Origin: Acidimicrobiaceae bacterium
GTDB taxonomy: Bacteria > Actinomycetota > Acidimicrobiia > Acidimicrobiales > RAAP-2
Assembly (NCBI GenBank): GCA_003131665.1
Contig: PKWA01000021.1
Location: 1,824 to 21,664, forward strand
DNA length: 19,841 nt
Reading direction: 5' to 3'
Shown here: piece by piece, positions 2,149-12,994 of the stretch
How the letters are laid out: each line of letters opens with the position of its first letter
How positions within the stretch are numbered: the stretch's first letter is position 1
The notes under the pieces: generated by a model
Database searches by the model: none
What the model was told of the DNA's origin: nothing
Seen by the model: the letters and a program-made list of their open reading frames with translations, nothing else
Program-made: the position numbers and the translations under genes

Positions 2149-3885
2149 GTGCCGGGCATGAGTCCCAAGTCAATCGATTTGACTAATTCGCTCATTGTGT
2201 CGATGTTCCGTCACTCGCTTTTTGTCACGGGCGTTTTGTGGCTGACCGGTCTCGCGGTAGTACTGATGCTCGTGGTCGCCTTGACCCGAGTCATCTTGCG
2301 CTTCAATCTCTCGGAAGAGGGACTCGACGAACCTCGGGCCCGCACGTATCTTCGATGGGCCTTTGGCGCGATTTGGTTGATTGACGGGATCCTGCAGTTC
2401 CAGGCCTCGATGCCCTTGGGACTGGCAAACAACGTGGTGGCCCCCACGACCGTGAACACGCCCTCGTGGCTGCACGCGCTCATGGAGCACGGGATCTACC
2501 TATGGAATAGCCATCCCATTACCTTGGCGGTGGGGGTGGCGTGGTTACAGATCGGCATCGGACTCATTTTGCTGGTCTCGAATGGTCGCACCGGTCGAAT
2601 AGTCGGGGGAGTTTCGGCGGTGTGGGCGGCCCTCATCTGGCTTATCGGCAACGGCGCGGGTGGCATCTTCATCTCCGGCGCGTCGTTTCTCTTTGGCTGG
2701 CCCGGGGCCACACTCTTTTACGTCGTGGCCGGGGCGTGGCTGTTCGTCAAGCCCGACACGTTTCGTCGGTTCTTTTCGACCGTCACCCTTCGTTTCTTAA
2801 GTGTCGTCTTAGTATTCGCGGCTCTCTTGCAGTCCTTACCGTCCAACGAGTTCTGGCACGGCGGCAACTCCAATGCCCTCACGGCGATGACCACCTTCAT
2901 GACCGGCATCGCTCAGCCGCATTGGTTGGCCTGGGCGGCTCGTCACGTCGGCTCACTGTCGGCGTCAATGGGCGGTGGGTTCAATCTCGTGGTCATCATG
3001 TGGCTCTTGGTGTGCGCGGGAGGTCTGTGGATGTCGGTGGAGCGACGTTGGAGTTGGCCGGTGTGGACGCTCGTCGTCGGCTGCGTCTTCTTCTGGTTCG
3101 TGACCGAGGACACCGCACTCTTTGGCGGCCTGGCGACCGACGTGAACTCACTCATTCCCGTGGCTGTTCTTGCTGGTTGCGCGTCCTCGAAACTGCGTGG
3201 GCTCGGACCACGAGAACGTCGATTCCCTCGAGAGATTACGAGCAGCGCCGGCGCCGTCGTGGCCACCTTCTCGTCGGCGATGATCCTCTTTTCAGCTGTG
3301 ACGATGGCCGGCGCCACGTTCGCCAGTGCCGAGACGACCCTCTACGAAGCGCAAAACGGGCCGGCCTCGGCGACGACGGGCCAGGCGCCAACCTTTACCT
3401 TGACCGATCAGTTCAACAAGACATATTCATTAGGTGAACATCCAGGTCGGGTCACGCTGTTGACCTTTCTCGATCCTCGGTGCTGGACCGACTGCCCGTT
3501 GCTCGCTCAACAACTCGAGCACGTTCGTGCCCAGCTCTCCGCTAACGCCCAACTCGACATCGTGGCCGTGGCGGCCGATCCCTATCACGAGAAGCTGTCT
3601 GATCTCCGCAACTTCATTGCGACCCGAGGTCTCACGAACGTCAAGAATTTTTACTACGTGACGGGCAAACTGTCAGACGTTCGAAAGGTCTGGAACAAGT
3701 ACGGCATCGGCGTGTCAATGACGCGCACGGACAAGATGAGCATTCACTCGGACTTCATGTTCATCATCAACGCCAAGGGATCGCTGCGCTGGATCATCCC
3801 CGATGACCCGTTGTCGAGTTCGTCGGGCCAGGCGTCGGCGGTCTCAGAGTTACGCAGTCTCTTGGCTTCTGTCAACGTGCACTGA
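2149..3885 (+). CDS. fusion of a DoxX-like multi-pass membrane region with a SCO1/SenC copper-chaperone domain
   Basis: This is a 578-residue protein in two parts. Residues 20-390 hold about nine to ten hydrophobic helices and include LRWAFGAIWLIDGILQFQA and FGGLATDVNSLIP, a pattern I associate with a DoxX-like actinobacterial membrane family of unknown role. After the last helix (about 367-391) comes an extracytoplasmic thioredoxin fold (about 410-578) with the SCO1 copper motif CxxxCP (Cys445, Cys449, in FLDPRCWTDCP) and the distal copper ligand His533 (SIHSDFMFIIN). SCO proteins help to build the CuA site of oxidase subunit II. The start is GTG at 2149, which has AAGGGGGA 6-7 bases upstream; an ATG at 2158 is too far away. 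It lies 30 bases after nusB and heads the oxidase island. The SCO assignment is firm; the role of the membrane part is unknown. Confidence 0.85.
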   Translation: MPGMSPKSIDLTNSLIVSMFRHSLFVTGVLWLTGLAVVLMLVVALTRVILRFNLSEEGLDEPRARTYLRWAFGAIWLIDGILQFQASMPLGLANNVVAPTTVNTPSWLHALMEHGIYLWNSHPITLAVGVAWLQIGIGLILLVSNGRTGRIVGGVSAVWAALIWLIGNGAGGIFISGASFLFGWPGATLFYVVAGAWLFVKPDTFRRFFSTVTLRFLSVVLVFAALLQSLPSNEFWHGGNSNALTAMTTFMTGIAQPHWLAWAARHVGSLSASMGGGFNLVVIMWLLVCAGGLWMSVERRWSWPVWTLVVGCVFFWFVTEDTALFGGLATDVNSLIPVAVLAGCASSKLRGLGPRERRFPREITSSAGAVVATFSSAMILFSAVTMAGATFASAETTLYEAQNGPASATTGQAPTFTLTDQFNKTYSLGEHPGRVTLLTFLDPRCWTDCPLLAQQLEHVRAQLSANAQLDIVAVAADPYHEKLSDLRNFIATRGLTNVKNFYYVTGKLSDVRKVWNKYGIGVSMTRTDKMSIHSDFMFIINAKGSLRWIIPDDPLSSSSGQASAVSELRSLLASVNVH

Positions 3886-3990: not shown

Positions 3991-4323
3991 TCAGCGAGTC
4001 TCTCTCGAGCGAGCACCCGTCGCGTCGGGAGCGCGCTCATGAACCGACCGCAGATAGTCGTTGTAGCTCGCTAGAGCCTGGTCGCTGCCTTCGGGGGGTA
4101 ACTTCTCGACTCGAAAAGGATCTTCGCTCTCATCTTTTAGCAACTTGTGCCACATGTAGAGCGCATACGCAGCGAACAGGGGCCACTCGAACACGTACGC
4201 CCACGAGAGCGTATTTCCAGAGCGGGCCCGAAGAAACTCGATGGTAAAGCCGGAAATACAGATTGTTTCAGCCAAAACTAGGCCCAAATGAGTCCAGACA
4301 GTTTTCTTCTTGTTTTGGCCCAC
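3991..4323 (-). CDS. small two-helix membrane protein, SWAYVFEWPL family (copy 1)
   Basis: I cannot name a function. The 110-residue product has two hydrophobic segments (about 12-30 and 42-60) around the block GNTLSWAYVFEWPL (36-49) and YMWHKLL (56-62), then a hydrophilic tail. The protein at 11542 shares this block almost exactly, so the two are paralogues flanking the oxidase genes. The start is GTG at 4323; AAAGG lies only three bases before it, so initiation is uncertain. It is divergent from the cupredoxin gene at 4403 and convergent with the SCO fusion. The plus-strand open frame at 3930-4247 over the same DNA has no recognisable content. A role in oxidase assembly or as a small subunit is only inferred from position. 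Confidence 0.75.
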   Translation of the reverse strand: MGQNKKKTVWTHLGLVLAETICISGFTIEFLRARSGNTLSWAYVFEWPLFAAYALYMWHKLLKDESEDPFRVEKLPPEGSDQALASYNDYLRSVHERAPDATGARSRETR

Positions 4324-4402: not shown

Positions 4403-5086
4403 ATGTCAATGGGGGGCAGGCTCGCGGGAGTCCTCGGGCTTTTTTTAGTTGCGGTCGGACTGGTGGTGTGGGGTGTGGCCACCTTGATCACACCAGGCGT
4501 ATCGGGTGGACTTGTCAACTTCACCCATACACAAGCGGCGGGCCAGCCGGTCAACCTCACGGTGGAAACGGTGGGCTCGATCGGCTACGGTGCCCACCCG
4601 ACGTGGGTTTCCTACTTAACCAAAGATCCGCACACGGGCAAGTACGTCCACGAAACGTCGTGGGAGTTACCAGCTAACACGGTCGTTGATATGACGGTGT
4701 ACCAATACGACAGCGGAAGCCCGCTGCGCAATCAGCAGTGGGGTCAGGTCGAAGGCACGATCGGCGATGACGCCACATTGAACGGCAAGGACTTCACTAC
4801 CTACGACTCGAACACCGGCACGGGAGTCGGCCACACCTTCGCCATTCCAGCGCTCAACTTGATCGTCCCGTTGGTTGGCGTGGGCGGCAACAACATCTGC
4901 GGTATGGCGCCGTGTCTGCCGTCCGCGTTCCCACACAACACCGAGACCTTCAGCTTTAAAACGCCGGGGCCCGGCACCTACAACTGGCAGTGCTTCGTGC
5001 CGTGCGCGTTGGGCTATCTGTTTGGCAATGGCGGAGCGATGTCAACGCAGGGCTACATGGGTGGCGAACTGGAAGTGGTGAGCTGA
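4403..5086 (+). CDS. membrane-anchored cupredoxin-like copper protein, first gene of the oxidase operon
   Basis: The 227-residue protein has one N-terminal hydrophobic anchor (about 8-30) and an extracytoplasmic beta-rich domain. The C-terminal part resembles a cupredoxin: His144 in VGHTFAIPALNL, then a Cys197-x3-Cys201 pair in YNWQCFVPCALGYL, Met213 and Met219. This recalls the CuA order His...CxxxC...His...Met, but the second His is absent, so a mononuclear site or a degenerate CuA is possible. A second Cys pair (166, 171; CGMAPC) could form a disulfide. The start has AAAGGGGTGA about six bases upstream. Subunit II begins two bases after the stop, so it is probably an electron carrier or extra subunit of the same oxidase. 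The cupredoxin fold is likely; the exact metal is unproven. Confidence 0.75.
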   Translation: MSMGGRLAGVLGLFLVAVGLVVWGVATLITPGVSGGLVNFTHTQAAGQPVNLTVETVGSIGYGAHPTWVSYLTKDPHTGKYVHETSWELPANTVVDMTVYQYDSGSPLRNQQWGQVEGTIGDDATLNGKDFTTYDSNTGTGVGHTFAIPALNLIVPLVGVGGNNICGMAPCLPSAFPHNTETFSFKTPGPGTYNWQCFVPCALGYLFGNGGAMSTQGYMGGELEVVS

Positions 5087-5088
5087 GA

Positions 5089-6078
5089 ATGGCCGAAGAG
5101 AACTCCACCGACACCGACTCTCATTTCCGTCGCATCACGATCATCTGGCTCGTTCTTTCGGTCGTTTTGGATCTGCTCTACTGGTTCCTCGTCGGCCCTC
5201 ACGTACCGCCCGGGCGCATGACCTCAACCGCCAGGGCGGACCAGTTCGACTTCAACGTGCTCTTTGTGGTCGCGCTGCCCGTGTTGATCGGCATCTGGGA
5301 GTTCATGCTGTACTCGGTGTTCACGTGGAGATCAAAGCGAGCCGGTGTACCCGAGCCCGTGGGTGGGCCCACGGCGGCGGGCAACAAGCGAGCCGAAGTC
5401 TCTTGGATAGTGATCACCTCGGTCGTGGTGTTGCTCCTCGCCGCCTTTGGCACGGTCAGTGTCATCACGGGCAAGGGCTCGGGCGGTGGCGAGGTACCCA
5501 ATCCGCTGTGGTCGCCCTCGGGATCAGTCAAAGCCGAGACGGCGGCCCTGGCAGGTACCGGAACGTGGGCACCGAACACGAACGCCGTCCTACCGGTGCA
5601 GGTCATTGGGCAACAGTGGAAGTGGACGTACCGCTATCCGACCTTCGGGGGCTTCGAGTCGTCCCAGCTGATTTTGCCCGATAACACGAATATCGAATTC
5701 AACGTCACGTCGCTCGACGTGATCCATAGCTTTTGGGCCTATCAGCTCGAGGTTAAGGCGGACGCCAACCCCGAAGAGAACAACGTGGCATTTACGAAGA
5801 CTGAACAGTTAGGTAGCTTCGTGGTCCGCTGCAGTGAACTCTGCGGTATTTGGCACGGCGCCATGTTCAACTACGGCAAAGTGGTCAGCCAAACGGCCTT
5901 TATGACGTGGGCGACCCAGACCGAAGCCGCGAACGCGACGAACACGGAGGATCTGCCCATCTTCGCGTGGACGTACGTGCCCGACGCCAATGGTGCCGCG
6001 GGCGGTTACTACCCAGACGGAAAGTTGACGCCGTACAGCTCAGACGAGGTCTACGGATCGAAGCAGCCCGGTTCATGA
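5089..6078 (+). CDS. ctaC: cytochrome c oxidase subunit II with complete CuA site
   Basis: This is the electron-entry subunit of a heme-copper oxidase, located in the membrane with the CuA domain outside. From the ATG at 5089 it has 329 residues. An upstream in-frame ATG at 4990 would overlap the cupredoxin gene by 97 bases and is rejected. Three hydrophobic segments appear at about 15-35, 55-78 and 105-126, one more than the usual two. The CuA domain has the aromatic entry patch QQWKWTYRYP (Trp177-Trp179) and all ligands: His213, Cys248, Glu250, Cys252, His256 and Met259 (VRCSELCGIWHGAMF). This argues for cytochrome c or a cupredoxin as donor rather than quinol. The C-terminal 60 residues after the CuA domain are unusual. 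The stop overlaps a mini-ORF leading to subunit I. Confidence 0.93.
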   Translation: MAEENSTDTDSHFRRITIIWLVLSVVLDLLYWFLVGPHVPPGRMTSTARADQFDFNVLFVVALPVLIGIWEFMLYSVFTWRSKRAGVPEPVGGPTAAGNKRAEVSWIVITSVVVLLLAAFGTVSVITGKGSGGGEVPNPLWSPSGSVKAETAALAGTGTWAPNTNAVLPVQVIGQQWKWTYRYPTFGGFESSQLILPDNTNIEFNVTSLDVIHSFWAYQLEVKADANPEENNVAFTKTEQLGSFVVRCSELCGIWHGAMFNYGKVVSQTAFMTWATQTEAANATNTEDLPIFAWTYVPDANGAAGGYYPDGKLTPYSSDEVYGSKQPGS

Positions 6079-6140
6079 TGGAGGACCGCGTGACATCTGA
6101 CCGGGCACTGACTAGGCAAGAAACGGAGATTGCGCGATGA
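6075..6140 (+). CDS. possible 21-codon coupling mini-ORF between subunits II and I
   Basis: An ATG at 6075 overlaps the subunit II stop as ATGA, and the mini-ORF stop at 6138-6140 overlaps the subunit I start, again as ATGA. It encodes MMEDRVTSDRALTRQETEIAR, a hydrophilic peptide with no membrane segment. Its exact fit between both genes suggests translational coupling through a leader peptide, but a 66-base frame can arise by chance and subunit I has its own GGAGAT Shine-Dalgarno sequence seven bases upstream. Confidence 0.3.
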   Translation: MMEDRVTSDRALTRQETEIAR

Positions 6141-8107
6141 CACTGAGCGCTGAACGGCCGCACGAAGTTGAGAAGGAGAGCTTCGTGCCGCCGGCGTCGA
6201 ATGCGGTGTCGCGCCGAAGGGGCGGCGGGTGGCTCAGTCAACACGTCGGCACCGCCATCGTGGCGGGGTTCCTCGGCTATCTCTTGGGACACTGGCTAGG
6301 CAACTACATCTCGAGCGGGTATCCCGTGGTGACCAACACGGGTCAGAACTCCATTGCCGATCTCATGGCGCTGATCTTCATGGTGGTCGGTTGGCTCGCG
6401 GGAATCGGCGCGTTGAACTATCCACTAGCCAAACTGGTCGGTCGTGAAGCGAAAGACGACGTCGAACTGACGGGTTGGAGTAAGTATTTCCGATTCAATC
6501 TTGACCACAAGGTGGTGGGACTGCAGTACGTCCTAGGCGTGCTGCTCTTTCTCTTTACGGGCGGACTGCTCGCCATGGCAATTCGAACCGAGCTGCTCAA
6601 TCCGACGACTCACGTCTTTAGCGCCGACACCTATATCAAAATCGTCAGTGAACACGGAACCATCATGATGATGATGGCCTCATCGGTAGTAATCGGGCCG
6701 CTCGGAAACTACTTCGTCCCCTTGATGATTGGCGCTCGACGCATGGCGTTCCCGCGCATCGAAGCTTTCAGCCTCTGGGTCTTTCTCGCCGGTTACATGG
6801 TCATCTTTTCGGCGCTGCCTTTTGGCGGTTTCCCCACCGGATGGACCGGCTACGCGCCGCTGCAGACCCAAGCCGGGCCGGGGATGGTTTCGTATCTCTT
6901 CGGTTTCTTCGTCATCGGGCTCGGCATGATGGCAGCCGGATTCAATCTCGCGGCGACCATTATCAACTATCGCGCCCCGGGCATGACCTGGAGCCGCGTG
7001 CCCGTCTTCGTGTGGTCGATTTTGGCCACGGCGGCCCTGCTCACGCTCGCGACACCCGTACTGGTCGCGGGAGGTCTCTTCGGTCTGCTCGACAAGACGG
7101 TCCAGACCGCCTTTTACGTCACCGAACACGGAGGCAGCTCGTACCTGTGGCAGAACCTGTTCTGGTTCTTCGGTCACCCCGAGGTGTACATCATGGCGCT
7201 GCCGGGTTTTGGCATCGTGGGTGAGATTATTCCAGTCTTTTGTCGAAAGCCGCTCTTCGCGTATCGCATCGCCGCCGCGGGCATGATTGGCGTGGCCCTG
7301 CTGTCATTCTTCGTTTGGCAGCACCATCTGTTCCAAAGTGGTATCGACCCCGACATGCGCCCGCTGTTCATGCTCACCACCGAGCTGATTTCAATCCCCA
7401 CTGGCTTCATTTTCTTGGTCGGCATGGGAACGCTCTATCGAGCAAAAATCAGATTTGAAGTGCCGATGCTGTTCTGCATGGCGGTGTACTTCAACTTCCT
7501 CATCGGGGGAGTGTCGGGAGTCTTCCTGTCGGACGTTCCCGTCAACGTCACGGTGCACGGCGGCTTCTTCGTGCTCTCACACTTTCACTACACGATCATG
7601 GGCGGGCTGATCTTTGCGTTCATGGCCGGACTCTACTTCTGGCTGCCCAAGATGACTGGGCGAGTGATGAACAAGAGACTGGGTCTCTGGCATTTTTGGA
7701 CCATGTTCGTCTTCTTCAACCTGACCTTCTTTCCGATGTTCATTATCGGTCTGCTCGGCCAACCCCGTCGAGTCTTCACCTACGCCAAGAACCTTCAGAC
7801 GCTCAATGACTTCTCCTCGATCAGTGCGTTCTTGCTGGGTGCCTCCTTCCTCATCTTCTTCGCAAATCTCATGTGGTCCCAGTTCATCAATCCGAAGAAG
7901 TCACCGGCCAATCCCTGGGAGTCACTCGGCCTGGAGTGGCAGACGGCGACGCCCATCCCGCCCCATAACTTCGATCGAATTCCGGTCATTATGACCGACC
8001 CGTATCACTACAGCGAAGCAGGCGCTCCGGCGCTGGCGGACTTCGGTGATGATGATTTCGTCCATACCAGCAGTGGTTCCACCACGTCCGGCGACGGCTC
8101 GGCGTAG
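6137..8107 (+). CDS. ctaD: heme-copper oxidase subunit I with altered proton-channel residues
   Basis: This is the catalytic subunit, 656 residues, with the 12-helix core preceded by two extra predicted helices (about 37-56 and 72-95). Heme and copper ligands are all present: low-spin heme His173 and His484, CuB His347 with His396-His397, high-spin heme His482, and the active-site Tyr351 in GHPEVY. Arg543-Arg544 (GQPRRVF) face the propionates. Glu349 (bovine Glu242) is kept. By motif alignment, however, the D-channel Asp (bovine Asp91, in GAPDMAFPR) is Arg202 in GARRMAFPR; the K-channel Lys (bovine Lys319, in PTGVK) is Ile425 in PTGFIF; and the Mg-site Asp369 is Gly475 in VHGGFF. The start has GGAGAT seven bases upstream. 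It is an O2 reductase by active site; pumping ability is uncertain. Confidence 0.93.
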   Translation: MTLSAERPHEVEKESFVPPASNAVSRRRGGGWLSQHVGTAIVAGFLGYLLGHWLGNYISSGYPVVTNTGQNSIADLMALIFMVVGWLAGIGALNYPLAKLVGREAKDDVELTGWSKYFRFNLDHKVVGLQYVLGVLLFLFTGGLLAMAIRTELLNPTTHVFSADTYIKIVSEHGTIMMMMASSVVIGPLGNYFVPLMIGARRMAFPRIEAFSLWVFLAGYMVIFSALPFGGFPTGWTGYAPLQTQAGPGMVSYLFGFFVIGLGMMAAGFNLAATIINYRAPGMTWSRVPVFVWSILATAALLTLATPVLVAGGLFGLLDKTVQTAFYVTEHGGSSYLWQNLFWFFGHPEVYIMALPGFGIVGEIIPVFCRKPLFAYRIAAAGMIGVALLSFFVWQHHLFQSGIDPDMRPLFMLTTELISIPTGFIFLVGMGTLYRAKIRFEVPMLFCMAVYFNFLIGGVSGVFLSDVPVNVTVHGGFFVLSHFHYTIMGGLIFAFMAGLYFWLPKMTGRVMNKRLGLWHFWTMFVFFNLTFFPMFIIGLLGQPRRVFTYAKNLQTLNDFSSISAFLLGASFLIFFANLMWSQFINPKKSPANPWESLGLEWQTATPIPPHNFDRIPVIMTDPYHYSEAGAPALADFGDDDFVHTSSGSTTSGDGSA

Positions 8108-8122
8108 TGGCGAGTGGAGAGT

Positions 8123-8166
8123 AAGGGCATGAGCGACGCGATCAGAAACTCAAAGGGCATGAGCGA
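8123..8166 (+). repeat. 14-base direct repeat across the subunit III start
   Basis: AAGGGCATGAGCGA occurs at 8123-8136 and again at 8153-8166, exactly 30 bases apart and in the same frame, so the protein begins with SKGMSD twice if read from the upstream GTG. Each copy contains a possible ATG start (8129 and 8159). Confidence 0.8.
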
Positions 8167-8785
8167 TACTCCCGAGGAGCGTGAGTTTGAACTGCGCGCC
8201 CATATCGGCTCGATTTGGAGTGGGGGGCGTCTCTTCATTGGTATGTACACGTTTTTGTTCGCGTCCTTGGCCTTCAGCTACTTCTACCTGCGCTCGAGCA
8301 ATAACGGTTTGCTATGGCGGCCGGATCACGTCACGGCGCCGACCAGTTTTGGTTGGTCCATCTATTCGTTGATGCTGTTGACGGCGCTGATGGCAGTGTA
8401 CGGGCAGCGGCGTCTTCGACGAGGCGCCGTCACCGACTTCCAATTGGCCGGCTGGATCGGCGTGTGCGCCGGCCTGGCTGCGCTCTTTTTACAGCTGTGG
8501 GACTACACGGCGGTGCCGTTCTATCCGGGTTCGAGCGGCTACGCGTCAACGTTCATCGGTTTCACCGTTCTCAACATCGCCACGATTATCGCCGGAACCT
8601 ATTGGCTGGAGACCACGCTGGCGCGTTCGTTGCGCCTGCGTAAGGAACTCGGGGGCGTGAAGCCAGAACTCTCGATGCATCCCTCCGCGCAGTCCTTTCG
8701 GGCCAACGTTGCGTCCATGGCCTACTTCTGGGGTTTCCTCGCGTTGGCGAGCACGCTGTTGTTCGCAATGTTTTATCTGCTGTGA
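8129..8785 (+). CDS. ctaE: cytochrome c oxidase subunit III, five-helix type
   Basis: A membrane subunit that supports subunit I, 218 residues from the ATG at 8129. I chose this start because GGAGAG lies seven bases before it; a GTG at 8114 and an ATG at 8159 are also in frame, and the latter lies in the second copy of a direct repeat. Five hydrophobic segments are seen (about 35-53, 70-85, 100-118, 128-150 and 190-215 from this start), the short form lacking the first two helices of mitochondrial COX III. The first helix ends in FSYFYLRS, like the family pattern FAAYFYLR, but the Glu that usually precedes it (bovine Glu90) appears to be Tyr. It follows subunit I by 21 bases. Family assignment is good; the Glu loss is my own alignment. 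Confidence 0.85.
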   Translation: MSDAIRNSKGMSDTPEEREFELRAHIGSIWSGGRLFIGMYTFLFASLAFSYFYLRSSNNGLLWRPDHVTAPTSFGWSIYSLMLLTALMAVYGQRRLRRGAVTDFQLAGWIGVCAGLAALFLQLWDYTAVPFYPGSSGYASTFIGFTVLNIATIIAGTYWLETTLARSLRLRKELGGVKPELSMHPSAQSFRANVASMAYFWGFLALASTLLFAMFYLL

Positions 8786-8858: not shown

Positions 8859-8972
8859 ATGCAAGGTGTCGATATATACATTGGTCCTCAGGTCCAGACC
8901 CTTGTCGTGCTGTTGGGTGTATTTATTGGTGTTGTCCTCTGGGGATTCTTCCAGCACCATCATTCGGAGTGA
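8859..8972 (+). CDS. 37-residue single-helix membrane protein, probable small oxidase subunit
   Basis: The product has a short polar start (MQGVDIYIGPQVQ), one hydrophobic helix of about 17 residues (14-31) and a C-terminal tail HHHSE. It has AGGTGG six bases before the ATG. Its stop overlaps the GTG of the next gene by four bases (GTGA at 8969-8972), a strong sign of real translation in a compact operon. Length and one-helix form resemble tiny accessory subunits such as CcoQ or actinobacterial subunit IV forms, though I recognise no specific family. The three His residues could touch metal or lipid heads; that is a guess. Confidence 0.65.
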   Translation: MQGVDIYIGPQVQTLVVLLGVFIGVVLWGFFQHHHSE

Positions 8973-9790
8973 CGGAAGAGCCTCGCCAAGGTTTTCTTCA
9001 CCATCGCGGTCACCGCTTAAGGGCCGTTTCCGTCGTGGTCGCCCTGACTGCGTGGGTGCTCGCGCTGGTACCTCCGTTCGTCACCTGGTCTACTCGTTAC
9101 GAATTCGCTCAAGCCATCCAATTTGGACTTTTCGCCGTCGCCGTTCCCGCCATGGTGGTCGCCGGCGGCCCGTGGAGATGGCTGGGCTTGGCGTCGAAAC
9201 GGCCACTTCAGTTTGATAGCGACGGAAGGCTTCTCTCGACCGCACCCTTGCGACCCGTTGATCGAATCGCGTCGAGAAGACTGAATGAACTCGGTCATCG
9301 ACGCGCGATTGTCCTCGTGCTGGTCTTCGTCGCCCAGACGATCCTCTGGCGATCGTCGCCGGTGGTCAACGCCCTGGTACGCCACCCGTGGCTTGAAGTG
9401 ATCGAGTCACTGGCGCTCGTGGGCGCGGGCGTCTTGCTATGGCTGGATTTGATTGAGTCCGCGCCCTTTCGTCCACGAACGACCCGGCCGTTTCGAATCG
9501 GCATGTCGGCGACGGCCATGTGGGCCGTGTGGGTGACGGCGTACTTGATGGCCATGTCGCACAACTCGTGGTATCCGGCGATTCACCACGAGGCGGGCCG
9601 CGGCCTCTCCCAGTCAGCGGATCAGCAGATCTCGGCGGCAATCTTGTGGTTTACGTCAGCAGTCGCCTTCATGCCGGTGGTGTTTTCAAACTTGATTCGT
9701 TGGCTCCAGTCCGAGGACGATCCGGACGACGAGCTCTACCAACTCGTTCGCCAACATCGGACGAGAGGATTCTTTGGTACGAATCCCTAG
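8969..9790 (+). CDS. CtaG-like membrane protein lacking most conserved histidines
   Basis: This 273-residue multi-pass protein aligns with the CtaG encoded at 12047: VAGGPW against VAGAPW, GVLLWLDLIES against GVLFWLQIIDS, and ADQQISAAILWF against ADQQIGAAILWV. CtaG is a membrane factor needed to insert copper into the CuB site of caa3-type oxidases. Against copy 2, His76 and His80 are Gln48 and Phe52, His150 is Arg128, and His165 and His170 are Leu142 and Ser147; only His207 matches His231. It therefore probably does not bind copper in the same way and may be structural or regulatory. The GTG start overlaps the 37-residue gene, so it belongs to the oxidase operon. The next gene is convergent. 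Confidence 0.78.
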   Translation: MTEEPRQGFLHHRGHRLRAVSVVVALTAWVLALVPPFVTWSTRYEFAQAIQFGLFAVAVPAMVVAGGPWRWLGLASKRPLQFDSDGRLLSTAPLRPVDRIASRRLNELGHRRAIVLVLVFVAQTILWRSSPVVNALVRHPWLEVIESLALVGAGVLLWLDLIESAPFRPRTTRPFRIGMSATAMWAVWVTAYLMAMSHNSWYPAIHHEAGRGLSQSADQQISAAILWFTSAVAFMPVVFSNLIRWLQSEDDPDDELYQLVRQHRTRGFFGTNP

Positions 9791-9822: not shown

Positions 9823-10500
9823 TCAGGTGCCAATCAAATGAGGCAACACCGGCAGTTTCACGCTGACCAGTGTGATCCCCAGCACTGCTTCGGCGTCGGA
9901 GACGTCGCTATTTGCCAACTGGCGATTGGCGGCGAGGCGAGTCTGCTGAAGAGTTAGGTCGTGAAGCTTCGCACTGTCGCCGGGATGGGAAAAGAGGTAT
10001 TGAATGTCCTCAATGGAGGCCAGGGCGTTGTTCGTCATCCACCTCTGAACGACACTTAACATCCGGTCAATGTGTTTACCGGCGGTGGTGTCAAGCACTT
10101 GAATATTGTTGGTCAAGTCGTACACCGGTTGGCTCGCGAACGAGCAAGCCGTCTGATCACCGGTGAGCAGCGAAGGAACCTGACCCAAGTCTGCCTTTGT
10201 CAACTTCCCTTGTACGTTTCGATTGTAAAAATCGAAGGACTCGTTGACCGCGAACGCGCACGGCTTGAGGTCGTTATTGATCGTTCTCAAGGTGGCGTCC
10301 TGAGAAGCGGCGTCCTGCGCCTTGGTTAACGGGTGAGGGAGATCGGTGATGACCGAAATCGCCACGATGAGAAGGATCGCGACGGTGACGAGAAACCACG
10401 GTCGCTTGTACCAAACGGCCTTGGCCATGCCCAGCGACGATGTCGCCATCGAGGCCGGATCGAAGGGAATCTCTTCGAAGCCCGAGAGGTCATCGCTCAC
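9823..10500 (-). CDS. unknown single-pass anchored protein, partner of SCO1
   Basis: I do not recognise this 225-residue protein. It has a cytoplasmic N-terminus of about 35 residues (SDDLSGFEEIPFDP), one hydrophobic helix (about 36-53) and an extracytoplasmic domain that looks mainly helical, with two cysteines (Cys81 in KPCAFAVNE and Cys119 in DQTACSFASQ) that could pair. The GTG start at 10500 overlaps the SCO1 stop by four bases, so the two are co-translated, which points to a role beside copper delivery or CuA thiol handling. It ends 32 bases from the convergent CtaG-like gene. Confidence 0.75.
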   Translation of the reverse strand: MSDDLSGFEEIPFDPASMATSSLGMAKAVWYKRPWFLVTVAILLIVAISVITDLPHPLTKAQDAASQDATLRTINNDLKPCAFAVNESFDFYNRNVQGKLTKADLGQVPSLLTGDQTACSFASQPVYDLTNNIQVLDTTAGKHIDRMLSVVQRWMTNNALASIEDIQYLFSHPGDSAKLHDLTLQQTRLAANRQLANSDVSDAEAVLGITLVSVKLPVLPHLIGT

Positions 10501-11372
10501 GGCATCAGACTAACTGCCGTCTCCGCAATCGCTTGAGCGTAGTGATGAATACTCGAATCGTTCAGCGAGAATCGTCCGGAGTTGCTTTCCGTCGCGAACG
10601 GCATGGCGTACGCGTCCAACTGTCCATCAGGTCCGATGAAGTACAGCACATTGTTGTGCGTGACTTCATTGGCCCTGGATCCGACGTCGACCTTGACGCC
10701 GTACATTGTCCAGACGCGGTCCAAGTTCGTGAGGTTTCCGGTAAGAAAGGACACGGAGTTGACCTTCGAAAGCCCAGGTTCAAGCAACGCCTCACTTTGG
10801 GGCGAAGCGGAGAGTTGATTGGGATCGGTATTGACGATGGCGAACACCACCTTGGAACTTTGGAGACCGAGTAGTTGGTGCGCCTCTCTGATCTCGGCGC
10901 CCAGAACCGGGCAGATGTCGTTGCAGATCGAGTTATAGAAGGTCAAGACCACTACTTTGCCCTTTTGCGAGGCGAGGCTCCACGGCTGAGTCGCCTGATT
11001 TGTCAGCGAGAACGTGCCGGCCTTCGCGGATCCGATCAATTTAAGGCCCATGTACCCCTCGAGAGCGACGAGACCATCTCCCTTGGAAGGAGTGGTTGTG
11101 GTCGATACGTGAAGATCGGGTGACACTAGCGACGTGGCGGTCACGTTGCCGCCGAAGCTGCCGAAGTAGTGATCAATGATTTCGCCCGCGAGGCCGATAG
11201 CCAACAAAATGGCGACAGTCCAAAGAATGAACCTTGGTGGTACGGGCACTCGGCCCGTTCGAAACGCCGCGCTTCGATCCGCCTTCGTGTTGGCGGCCCT
11301 GAAAATTGAAGTTCTTTGCTCTTCGGTGAGTTCACCGGAGACATCAGAACGCTCGCCATTCGTATCAGCCAT
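10497..11372 (-). CDS. SCO1/SenC-type copper chaperone, membrane anchored
   Basis: A 291-residue protein with a cytoplasmic N-terminus, one anchor helix (about 47-65) and an extracytoplasmic thioredoxin-like domain (about 115-290). The copper motif CxxxCP is present (Cys150, Cys154 in NSICNDICPVLG) together with the distal ligand His239 in VTHNNVLYFIGPDG. SCO proteins deliver copper to, or reduce the thiols of, the CuA site of subunit II. It is the second SCO domain in the window, after the fusion protein. The N-terminal cytoplasmic region of about 45 residues is longer than usual for the family. It lies on the minus strand, divergent from the gene at 11542, and is coupled to the unknown protein downstream. 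Confidence 0.92.
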   Translation of the reverse strand: MADTNGERSDVSGELTEEQRTSIFRAANTKADRSAAFRTGRVPVPPRFILWTVAILLAIGLAGEIIDHYFGSFGGNVTATSLVSPDLHVSTTTTPSKGDGLVALEGYMGLKLIGSAKAGTFSLTNQATQPWSLASQKGKVVVLTFYNSICNDICPVLGAEIREAHQLLGLQSSKVVFAIVNTDPNQLSASPQSEALLEPGLSKVNSVSFLTGNLTNLDRVWTMYGVKVDVGSRANEVTHNNVLYFIGPDGQLDAYAMPFATESNSGRFSLNDSSIHHYAQAIAETAVSLMP

Positions 11373-11541: not shown

Positions 11542-11958
11542 GTGAACGGGGCTGAAGATGCCAATGACGCTGAATTGAGATCTGAGACCGTGTCGCGCTT
11601 AACCGGAGCGGCTGCCTACAAGACCCACCTCACCCTGCTTTTGGGCTTGGCGTTGTGCGCGGGAGCCTTTTGGTTCGAACTTGGGCGAGCGGAGCGGGGC
11701 AACGGTCTCAGTTGGGCGTACGTATTTGAATGGCCGCTGCTAGGAATTTTCGCGGTCTACATGTGGTGGAAACTTCTGCATCCCGGACTCGAGAGCAAGC
11801 GACGACGGCCTGGGCGTCCCGCCATCGCGCCGGAGTACGAGGGCATGCTCGCCGCTTGGCAAGATCACCAGCGAGAGCTTGAGGCGACGCAACGCGCGGA
11901 GGATCAAGATGCCGCGAGACTTCGTCGCGACCCCGATCCGACTCGGTGTTCCGATTAG
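11542..11958 (+). CDS. small two-helix membrane protein, SWAYVFEWPL family (copy 2)
   Basis: A paralogue of the minus-strand protein at 3991. The 138 residues carry a longer acidic N-terminus, two hydrophobic segments (about 28-46 and 58-78) and the shared block GNGLSWAYVFEWPL (53-66) with YMWWKLL (73-79), then a basic stretch (SKRRRPGRP) and a charged, possibly coiled tail (AWQDHQRELEATQRAEDQDA). Both copies also share a weaker tail pattern (about YEGMLAAWQDHQREL against DQALASYNDYLRSV). The function is unknown. It lies before the CtaG gene at 12047, and a hairpin follows its stop. The GTG start is probably leaderless. Confidence 0.75.
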   Translation: MNGAEDANDAELRSETVSRLTGAAAYKTHLTLLLGLALCAGAFWFELGRAERGNGLSWAYVFEWPLLGIFAVYMWWKLLHPGLESKRRRPGRPAIAPEYEGMLAAWQDHQRELEATQRAEDQDAARLRRDPDPTRCSD

Positions 11959-12046: not shown

Positions 12047-12994
12047 GTGAAGTACATCGCTCAACACTGGTCCTTTGACCCGTTTGTCGTGATTGTAGTC
12101 ATCACGGTCATCGCGAATGAATTGGGACTTGGTCGCCTTCGTGAGCATTCACTGCCCGCGCGCACTCGAAAGCGAAGAAAACATTCGCTCGTCTTCTACT
12201 CCGGACTGGTCGTGCTGTTAATAGCGATTGACTCCCCGGTCGATTACTGGTCGTCGAACTACTTCTTCGTACACATGATCGAACACCTTCTTCTAATGTT
12301 CGCCGCGCCGATTCTGATTGTCGCAGGAGCGCCCTGGATACCACTGATGTTCGCCTTTCCGGTCGCGGCACGGCGCAGAGTCGGCCGCTTCTTCTACTTG
12401 AGCGACAAGGCTCGAGGTTTCCGTGCCTGCTGGCGGTTTGTTCGATCGCCCTGGTTTGCGGTGATCTCGTTCAACGCAACTATGGTGCTCTGGCACATTC
12501 CCGCGCTGTTTGACCTCGCGGAGCGAAATTCCTCGGTGCACGTATGGGCGATGCACGGCAGTTTCTTGGTGACGGGTGTGCTGTTCTGGCTTCAAATTAT
12601 CGACTCGTATCCGATGAAGCCCGCGCGAGGAGCAGTGTGGCAGGCTAGTTCGATCATTGCGACCAATGTCGTCATGACACTGCTCGCCATATCCATGAGT
12701 ATTTTGACCACGGTAAGTTGGTACGCCACGTACTCCCACGTCCCAGGCGTGAGCATGTCACCGTTCGCTGATCAACAGATTGGCGCCGCCATTCTTTGGG
12801 TCTGTGGTGACTTCTGGGCACTGCCGGCACTCATCGTGATTCTTCGTCGAGCGATCTCGGAAGAGGGCTCGTTCTCGAACGTGATTGATCGACTTACCGG
12901 GCGCACGTCGGCACTGACCTTGGCGTCATTTCGCCCTACGCGCCAGCCCACCGCGCCATCTAGCGACACGATGGAAGAGACCTCGGAGCCCTAG
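12047..12994 (+). CDS. ctaG: cytochrome c oxidase assembly factor CtaG (caa3-type)
   Basis: A multi-pass membrane protein of 315 residues with about seven helices. CtaG is needed for copper insertion at the CuB site of subunit I. The conserved histidines are seen at 76 and 80 (VHMIEHLLLM), 150 (LWHIPALF), 165 and 170 (VHVWAMH) and 231 (YSHVPG), followed by ADQQIGAAILWV (241-252). The GTG start has GGGAGGAGT about seven bases upstream, the strongest ribosome site in the island. It stands apart from the main oxidase operon, after a small membrane gene and a hairpin, and is the last gene before pyrR. It probably supplies the function that the histidine-poor copy at 8969 cannot. Confidence 0.88.
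   Translation: MKYIAQHWSFDPFVVIVVITVIANELGLGRLREHSLPARTRKRRKHSLVFYSGLVVLLIAIDSPVDYWSSNYFFVHMIEHLLLMFAAPILIVAGAPWIPLMFAFPVAARRRVGRFFYLSDKARGFRACWRFVRSPWFAVISFNATMVLWHIPALFDLAERNSSVHVWAMHGSFLVTGVLFWLQIIDSYPMKPARGAVWQASSIIATNVVMTLLAISMSILTTVSWYATYSHVPGVSMSPFADQQIGAAILWVCGDFWALPALIVILRRAISEEGSFSNVIDRLTGRTSALTLASFRPTRQPTAPSSDTMEETSEP

Follow-up and report, generated by a model that had tools for sequence, protein, structure and literature searches.

The 19,841 nucleotides of DNA from an Acidimicrobiaceae bacterium that we analysed (hereafter the window) encode a cytochrome c oxidase subunit I from a clade in which the entrance to the D proton channel has been recast, the Asp at the channel mouth being replaced by Arg or Lys and the Asn gate by Glu, in enzymes that also lack the K-channel Lys. 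Arg or Lys at position 202 is a trait of this clade, more than chance, and the gene is kept under selection across it. We put the chances at about even that these residues describe a working O2 reductase with one rewired D uptake route and with weak or no pumping. A bolder wording, namely that this is a clade-wide A-family oxidase without either textbook channel (the D channel charge-inverted, the K channel absent) which does not pump or pumps by a novel route, is one that we hold tentatively, at somewhat less than even chances.

The open reading frame has an ATG start and is intact. It matches COX1 in Pfam with 425 bits; it scores 553 bits against the CtaD model, which is below the curated cut-off of 670.75, and 91 bits against the SoxB model. 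HMMER matches reach at most 395 bits for A-type sequences, at most 49 for ba3, and 34 for cbb3, and thus place the protein outside the B and C types. The heme and CuB ligand histidines, Tyr351, Glu349, and the Arg pair are all retained, so the first-pass annotation was right that the active-site ligands (metal ligands and active-site Tyr) are complete. Subunit I is best explained as part of an acidimicrobial actinobacterium's O2 reductase, of the A family and the CuA type. Between the window gene and seven clade members, dN/dS ranges from 0.065 to 0.129 in six, and could not be computed in the seventh, where synonymous sites are saturated. Sequencing error and pseudogenisation are ruled out by the 62 sequences that share the trait and by the low dN/dS. 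Residue numbers were anchored on gap-free motifs in HMMER alignments to solved structures (GARRMAFPRIEA against GAPDVAFPRLNA, TELISIPTGFIFL against TMAISIPTGVKIF), and R202, E349, E416, I425, and G475 were verified in the window gene, codons included. Bovine correspondences other than D91, N98, and E242 we take from constant offsets, conserved columns, and the usual bovine numbering. The pairs D91/D132, N98/N139, and E242/E286 are equated in Table 1 of PMC6934443. The features of the gene on which the argument turns are the following, with counts given for the rows of an extended alignment described below.

6137 to 8107, plus strand: coxA, cytochrome c oxidase subunit I of the K-less, D-swapped clade, 656 amino acids
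6245 to 6313, plus strand: extra N-terminal helix 1, residues 37-59, in the protein model (mean pLDDT 86.5)
6350 to 6406, plus strand: extra N-terminal helix 2, residues 72-90, in the protein model
6680 to 6685, plus strand: Ser182-Ser183, clade-specific new polar pair in helix II (61 clade rows: Thr 43, Ser 18 at 182; Ser 60, Ala 1 at 183)
6740 to 6742, plus strand: Arg202, replacing the D-channel mouth Asp (bovine D91, R. sphaeroides D132); Arg 60, Lys 1 in 61 clade rows, a group chosen on position 202; Asp in the other groups
6761 to 6763, plus strand: Glu209, replacing the D-channel Asn gate (bovine N98, R. sphaeroides N139); Glu 60, Gln 1 in 61 clade rows
6923 to 6928, plus strand: Gly263-Met264, replacing the D-channel serine pair (bovine S156, S157); in the clade Gly 54, Ser 6, Ala 1 and Met 59, Leu 2
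7181 to 7183, plus strand: Glu349, the D-channel end Glu (bovine E242), retained in 61/61 clade rows
7187 to 7189, plus strand: Tyr351, the active-site Tyr (bovine Y244), retained in 61/61 clade rows
7220 to 7222, plus strand: Gly362, at the site of the K-channel Ser (bovine S255), a residue kept by no more than 1 of 61 clade rows; Ser 59, Thr 16 in 75 K-bearing rows
7382 to 7384, plus strand: Glu416, acid on helix VIII (bovine M310 position); in 114/115 rows without Lys at 425 and 0/75 with Lys
7409 to 7411, plus strand: Ile425, replacing the K-channel Lys (bovine K319); Ile 49, Leu 8, Thr 2, Val 2 in 61 clade rows
7532 to 7534, plus strand: Asp466, acid common to the K-less groups (61/61 and 52/52 rows)
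7544 to 7546, plus strand: Asn470, replacing the Asp near the heme a3 propionate (bovine D364); Asn 48, Asp 13 in the clade; Asp 72, Thr 2, Asn 1 in 75 K-bearing rows
7559 to 7561, plus strand: Gly475 (bovine D369), not a channel residue

The anchored alignment and the codons confirm that bovine Asp91 corresponds to Arg202 and Lys319 to Ile425, as first annotated, and they add five changes (bovine to window): Asn98 to Glu209, Ser156 to Gly263, Ser157 to Met264, Ser255 to Gly362, and Asp364 to Asn470. We counted 190 of the 201 rows of the extended alignment, having dropped 11 fragments or broken frames (among them L002, L003, L040, L044, L066, L072, L096, L108, and L159). Eighty loci are the best by likeness to the window among the matches listed and the other rows come from its class and family; the 128 Asp-keeping and 75 K-bearing rows are no census of COX1. 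The rows comprise 61 with Arg or Lys at 202 (the D-swapped clade, on which all per-position clade tallies rest), 52 K-less rows keeping Asp, and 75 with both Asp and Lys, with L060 and L152 apart. Cores are distinct in 59 of the 61 clade rows (L035 equals L116, and L123 equals L124), and L152 (R/E, TELIS) makes 62.

Arg or Lys stands at 202 in 62 of the 190 counted homologues, the window's own and L152 included. The pair 202/209 is R/E in 59, K/E in one, and R/Q in one of the 61 rows, R/E in L152, and D/N in 128 rows, L060 among them. Asn is thus found at 209 in 128/128 rows that keep Asp at 202, and no counted row is mixed. The R/Q row, L010, has no acid at either position, and a clade locus outside the counts (L044), whose frame is broken, shows Asn202 together with Glu209 in one frame. 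An Asp in a shifted but equivalent position, which would speak against the loss first annotated, is half present: an acid now lies seven residues on, at the Asn gate. When compared with the D-channel set of A1 oxidases in Table 2 of PMC3084760 (Asp124, Asn199, Asn113, Asn131, Tyr35, Ser134, Ser193, and Glu278, in Paracoccus numbering), the window protein retains five of eight residues (Tyr35, Asn113, Asn199, Ser134, and Glu278) and changes three (Asp124 to Arg, Asn131 to Glu, and Ser193 to Met). The helix IV serine positions are occupied in the 75 K-bearing rows by Ser 65, Ala 8, and Gly 2 (263) and by Ser 43, Ala 22, Thr 6, Gly 3, and Val 1 (264). Glu349, correctly annotated as the retained bovine Glu242, is missing in 22/52 Asp-keeping K-less rows and in 21/75 K-bearing rows; its invariance in the clade, though it is often missing elsewhere, suggests that the D route still ends there. 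We do not claim Ser182 and Ser183 as stand-ins for the lost helix IV serines, since helix periodicity gives no clear channel-facing side. Two other clade-specific residues are Glu172 (6650-6652), beside the heme a ligand His173, in 57/61 clade rows, and Gln395 (7319-7321), beside the CuB His pair, in 61/61.

The K channel of A1 oxidases comprises Lys354, Thr351, Ser291, and Tyr280 (PMC3084760, Table 2); in the window enzyme Lys354 is Ile and Ser291 is Gly, the Thr and Tyr being retained, with T422 at bovine T316. Glu416 had been described as lying next to the K-channel position, which is loose (it stands nine residues before the Lys position and one after Thr415, R. sphaeroides T352), and had been proposed as a possible substitute. 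As a substitute peculiar to this enzyme it finds no support: Glu416 marks the whole K-less group, including enzymes that keep the D-channel Asp and Asn, and the sole K-less row without it is L060 (Binataceae). The 52 Asp-keeping K-less rows were chosen on Glu416 and have it by definition, 114/115 being the free count. Because the E416/K and R/E patterns each need few changes on the tree, these counts show conservation and not independent events. Glu416 presumably lies near the active site, judging from helix numbering and from known oxidase structures. Gly475 was rightly matched with bovine Asp369, yet it says nothing of a channel loss: the position is absent from the D- and K-channel list of PMC3084760, and Gly occurs there in 10/75 K-bearing and 30/52 Asp-keeping K-less rows.

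Two trees, both rooted at their midpoints and built without B, C, NOR, eNOR, or sNOR sequences, place the window enzyme on a divergent branch outside the ordinary A1 oxidases sampled, as had been suspected, and rule out its placement within A1. In a quick tree of 130 rows, the 42 D-swapped rows form one clade (SH-aLRT 99), which adjoins 11 Glu349-bearing K-less oxidases, nine of them from the window's family (join 99), and together with these sisters lies inside the K-less group (support 95). A careful tree of 41 chosen rows gives 100/100 support to the D-swapped clade (11 rows), 92/89 to the sister relation between D-swapped and Glu349-bearing K-less rows, and 100/100 to the separation of the K-less group (26 rows) from 15 K-bearing A1/A2 rows, which leaves the window enzyme outside the latter. 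On midpoint roots, this nesting implies that the lineage was already K-less, with Glu416, before the D channel was swapped, a change that falls on a single long stem branch (0.49-0.56 changes per column). A K channel lost along the way and one missing from the outset would follow from different roots. Relative to the A1 oxidases of Paracoccus, Rhodobacter, and cattle, the window enzyme is without the K-channel Lys and Ser, the D-channel Asp, the Asn gate, and the second serine.

These features resemble those of the 2TM COX1 class, put at the base of A1 and A2 by Degli Esposti et al. 2021; that work (PMC8239418) also describes K-channel losses and variants in family A, and a type 0 heme A synthase in iron-oxidiser members of the class. 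The window protein model has the two extra N-terminal helices, as first annotated; they are a mark of this published class (PMC8239418), and for the relatives this trait was compared as N-terminus length only. Our branch likewise stands apart from A1 and A2 as the class does in PMC8239418, no sequence of which is knowingly in our tree. We infer that the K-less group is the 2TM class, with the D-swapped clade next to or in it. The window's clade has also changed its D channel, from Asp/Asn to Arg/Glu; for bacterial members of the class the main text of PMC8239418 does not go down to the residues of the K or D channel. The swap may already appear in the supplement of PMC8239418; we found no description of it in the literature searched, which included few subscription journals.

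The gene lies in an oxidase cluster with the following members:

4403 to 5086, plus strand: cupredoxin-like partner protein, 227 residues, with CxxxC and a later Met, conserved beside coxB
5089 to 6078, plus strand: coxB, subunit II with the CuA motif CSELCGIWHGAM; ATG start at 5089 inferred
8114 to 8785, plus strand: coxC, divergent subunit III-like membrane protein, assigned by position
8969 to 9790, plus strand: CtaG-like oxidase assembly factor (PF09678)

The cupredoxin-like protein has no Pfam match at E up to 5 and no second CuA His, matches auracyanin weakly (E 0.085), and keeps its place next to coxB in the clade as well as in the K-less relatives L048 and L063; it may carry electrons by copper or be a second subunit resembling the CuA type. 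Even inside the clade the coxC candidate is poorly conserved, and Pfam gives it no match under E 0.001. The cluster also includes a second, different Caa3_CtaG-like assembly factor (12047-12994, plus strand). The window further encodes a long membrane protein that ends in a fused SCO1/SenC domain (2149-3885, plus strand), and a second SCO1 protein (10497-11372, minus strand). The cluster is flanked by two small proteins of no Pfam family (3991-4323, minus strand, and 11542-11958, plus strand), which are alike (43-53% identity by cross-matches in L034).

The best named match among the matches listed is the MAG Acidimicrobiaceae bacterium palsa_653, identical over a 101-residue query and about 89% over the gene, and thus from a genome close to the window's own but distinct from it. 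A search of 120 genomes of the window's family gave a match of at least 67% identity to the window protein in 51, with the window's own genome among them; the 50 of these that were read all have Arg202 and Glu209, except L159, which lacks the region. One clade member, L008, is by indirect match putatively Acidimicrobium ferrooxidans, a cultured ferrous-iron-oxidising acidophile with optimal growth at pH 2 (PMC3035218). At positions 202, 209, 416, and 425 its oxidase reads Lys, Glu, Glu, and Leu, respectively, and it keeps Asp at the bovine D364 position; the neighbours are the same in a different arrangement (efp-nusB, cox cluster, pyrR-pyrB, and aroB-aroQ), and the genome also encodes an ordinary D/N/K oxidase (L192). 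Ordinary paralogues from 18 genomes of the same genus or order (L180-L197) have D, N, and K in 18/18; 11 of these genomes also carry a D-swapped oxidase and seven a K-less one keeping Asp. Fragments of an ordinary oxidase lie on two contigs of the window's own genome (L002 and L003). Within the window's genus (e.g. L022, L025, and L028-L031), genomes have either a D-swapped or an Asp-keeping K-less oxidase, with only about 40% identity, and most members carry an ordinary oxidase beside it, a patchy exchange within one genus.

RuBisCO was found in none of four window-genus genomes searched, the window's own being 80% complete, and in two of seven overall (G014 and G134); iron oxidation is therefore not an evident role there. 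A rusticyanin model gave no match in 7/7 genomes, the control having matched only 1/14 named genomes, below the cut-off. On these searches iron oxidation as a shared role is unsupported for the window's genus. No bd oxidase matched in the window's own, incomplete genome. Heme A synthase (PF02628, CtaA), present in 17/18 same-genus relatives, was not found in that 80% complete assembly, probably a gap in it.

How would such an enzyme handle protons? The same D-channel positions are changed in laboratory mutants of the D pathway, namely N139D and D132N of R. sphaeroides and, reportedly, the decoupled Paracoccus mutant of PDB 3ehb. The clade's swap differs from them in being natural, in affecting both positions at once, in using Glu with Arg or Lys and not Asp with Asn, and in being fixed clade-wide. 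Three sites relevant to coupling are changed in the window enzyme. First, at the Asn gate, N139D uncouples pumping and keeps activity (PMC6934443). Second, at the mouth Asp, D132N blocks D uptake (PMC4321873). Third, enzymes mutated at the heme a3 propionate Asp, the site of Asn470 here, are decoupled (PMC4321873).

The first-pass annotation left a new proton path and an absence of pumping as alternatives; the sequence favours a rewired D path, its acid at 209 and no longer at 202, combined with the loss of several residues that decouple laboratory enzymes when mutated. We favour a scheme in which 1) mouth Asp to Arg or Lys, Asn gate to Glu, and helix IV serines mostly to Gly-Met would have rewired the D channel; 2) cytoplasmic protons would most likely reach the active site by this altered route, from Glu209 to Glu349; 3) the route would carry mainly protons consumed in making water; 4) pumping would be weakened or lost; and 5) the enzyme would serve acidophiles that already carry a large proton gradient. 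Where an acidophile combines a steep proton gradient with a high-potential donor, a non-pumping oxidase would make thermodynamic sense. Several observations go against this scheme: Asp364 is kept in 13/61 clade rows, L010 has no acid at 202 or 209, and the serine pair above the gate is mostly gone, any replacement for it being putative. Arg202 could close the channel mouth by pairing with Glu209. Simulations of R. sphaeroides show hydrogen-bond connections between D132 and N139, direct or through water, so Arg202 and Glu209 are probably near each other (PMC10341450).

Such an ion pair might seal the D channel altogether, with protons taking an undescribed route via Glu416, Asp466, and Glu172, perhaps from outside, and with no pumping. 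The joint change of four D-channel positions, two of which became apolar, the presence of Asp466 in 113/113 rows of the two K-less groups and of Glu416 in 114/115 K-less rows, and the published reading of the low turnover of D132N as a proton leak through the exit side (PMC4321873) would all fit. However, K-less relatives whose D channel still has its Asp and Asn carry Glu416 and Asp466 too; these two acids therefore did not arise as replacements for the D-channel Asp, and Glu349 is still invariant in the clade. A sealed channel strikes us as rather unlikely.

We regard as improbable the opposite case, a fully pumping oxidase in which Glu209 simply takes over from the mouth Asp and coupling is normal. 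An acid is retained within the D channel, as are both other channel Asn and the Tyr, and the R. sphaeroides double mutant D132N/N139D (PNAS 2006) is reportedly active, with pumping restored. The natural R/E pair may resemble this double mutant and, by that analogy, would speak for pumping and against our preferred reading. Full pumping fits poorly, however, with Asn at the Asp364 position in 48/61 clade rows, the mostly lost serine pair, the absent K-channel Lys, and the clade member without the new acid. Least credible of all, and rejected on motifs, is a nitric-oxide-reductase-like enzyme of the eNOR/sNOR kind: helix VIII does carry an extra acid, 19 residues past the second CuB His and close to the place of the NOR-motif acid, 21 past it, but the window protein has HPEVY, and HHLFQ with Glu at +19, in place of H-X-(Arom)-X-E and HHX(Arom)(Arom)X17E (PMC3084760); it also retains the active-site Tyr, is accompanied by a CuA subunit II, and scores 553 bits to CtaD, though below the cut-off.

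Work on how the D channel couples O2 reduction to pumping has relied mostly on mutants of a handful of model enzymes. Here, evolution made coordinated changes at the same places, in 62 fetched sequences of a gene under selection. In a 2011 census of 1216 heme-copper oxidases and NORs, only 4 lacked the channel residues of their type, and all 4 were assigned to B type (PMC3084760). The proton stoichiometry of a clade enzyme bears directly on whether pumping in the A family needs the Asp/Asn pair and the K channel. If the bolder wording given at the outset is true, the clade would be nature's own version of the uncoupling and recoupling mutants made in the laboratory, present in an iron oxidiser that can be grown (putatively A. 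ferrooxidans). Its enzymes may show how oxidases work without the standard proton pump.
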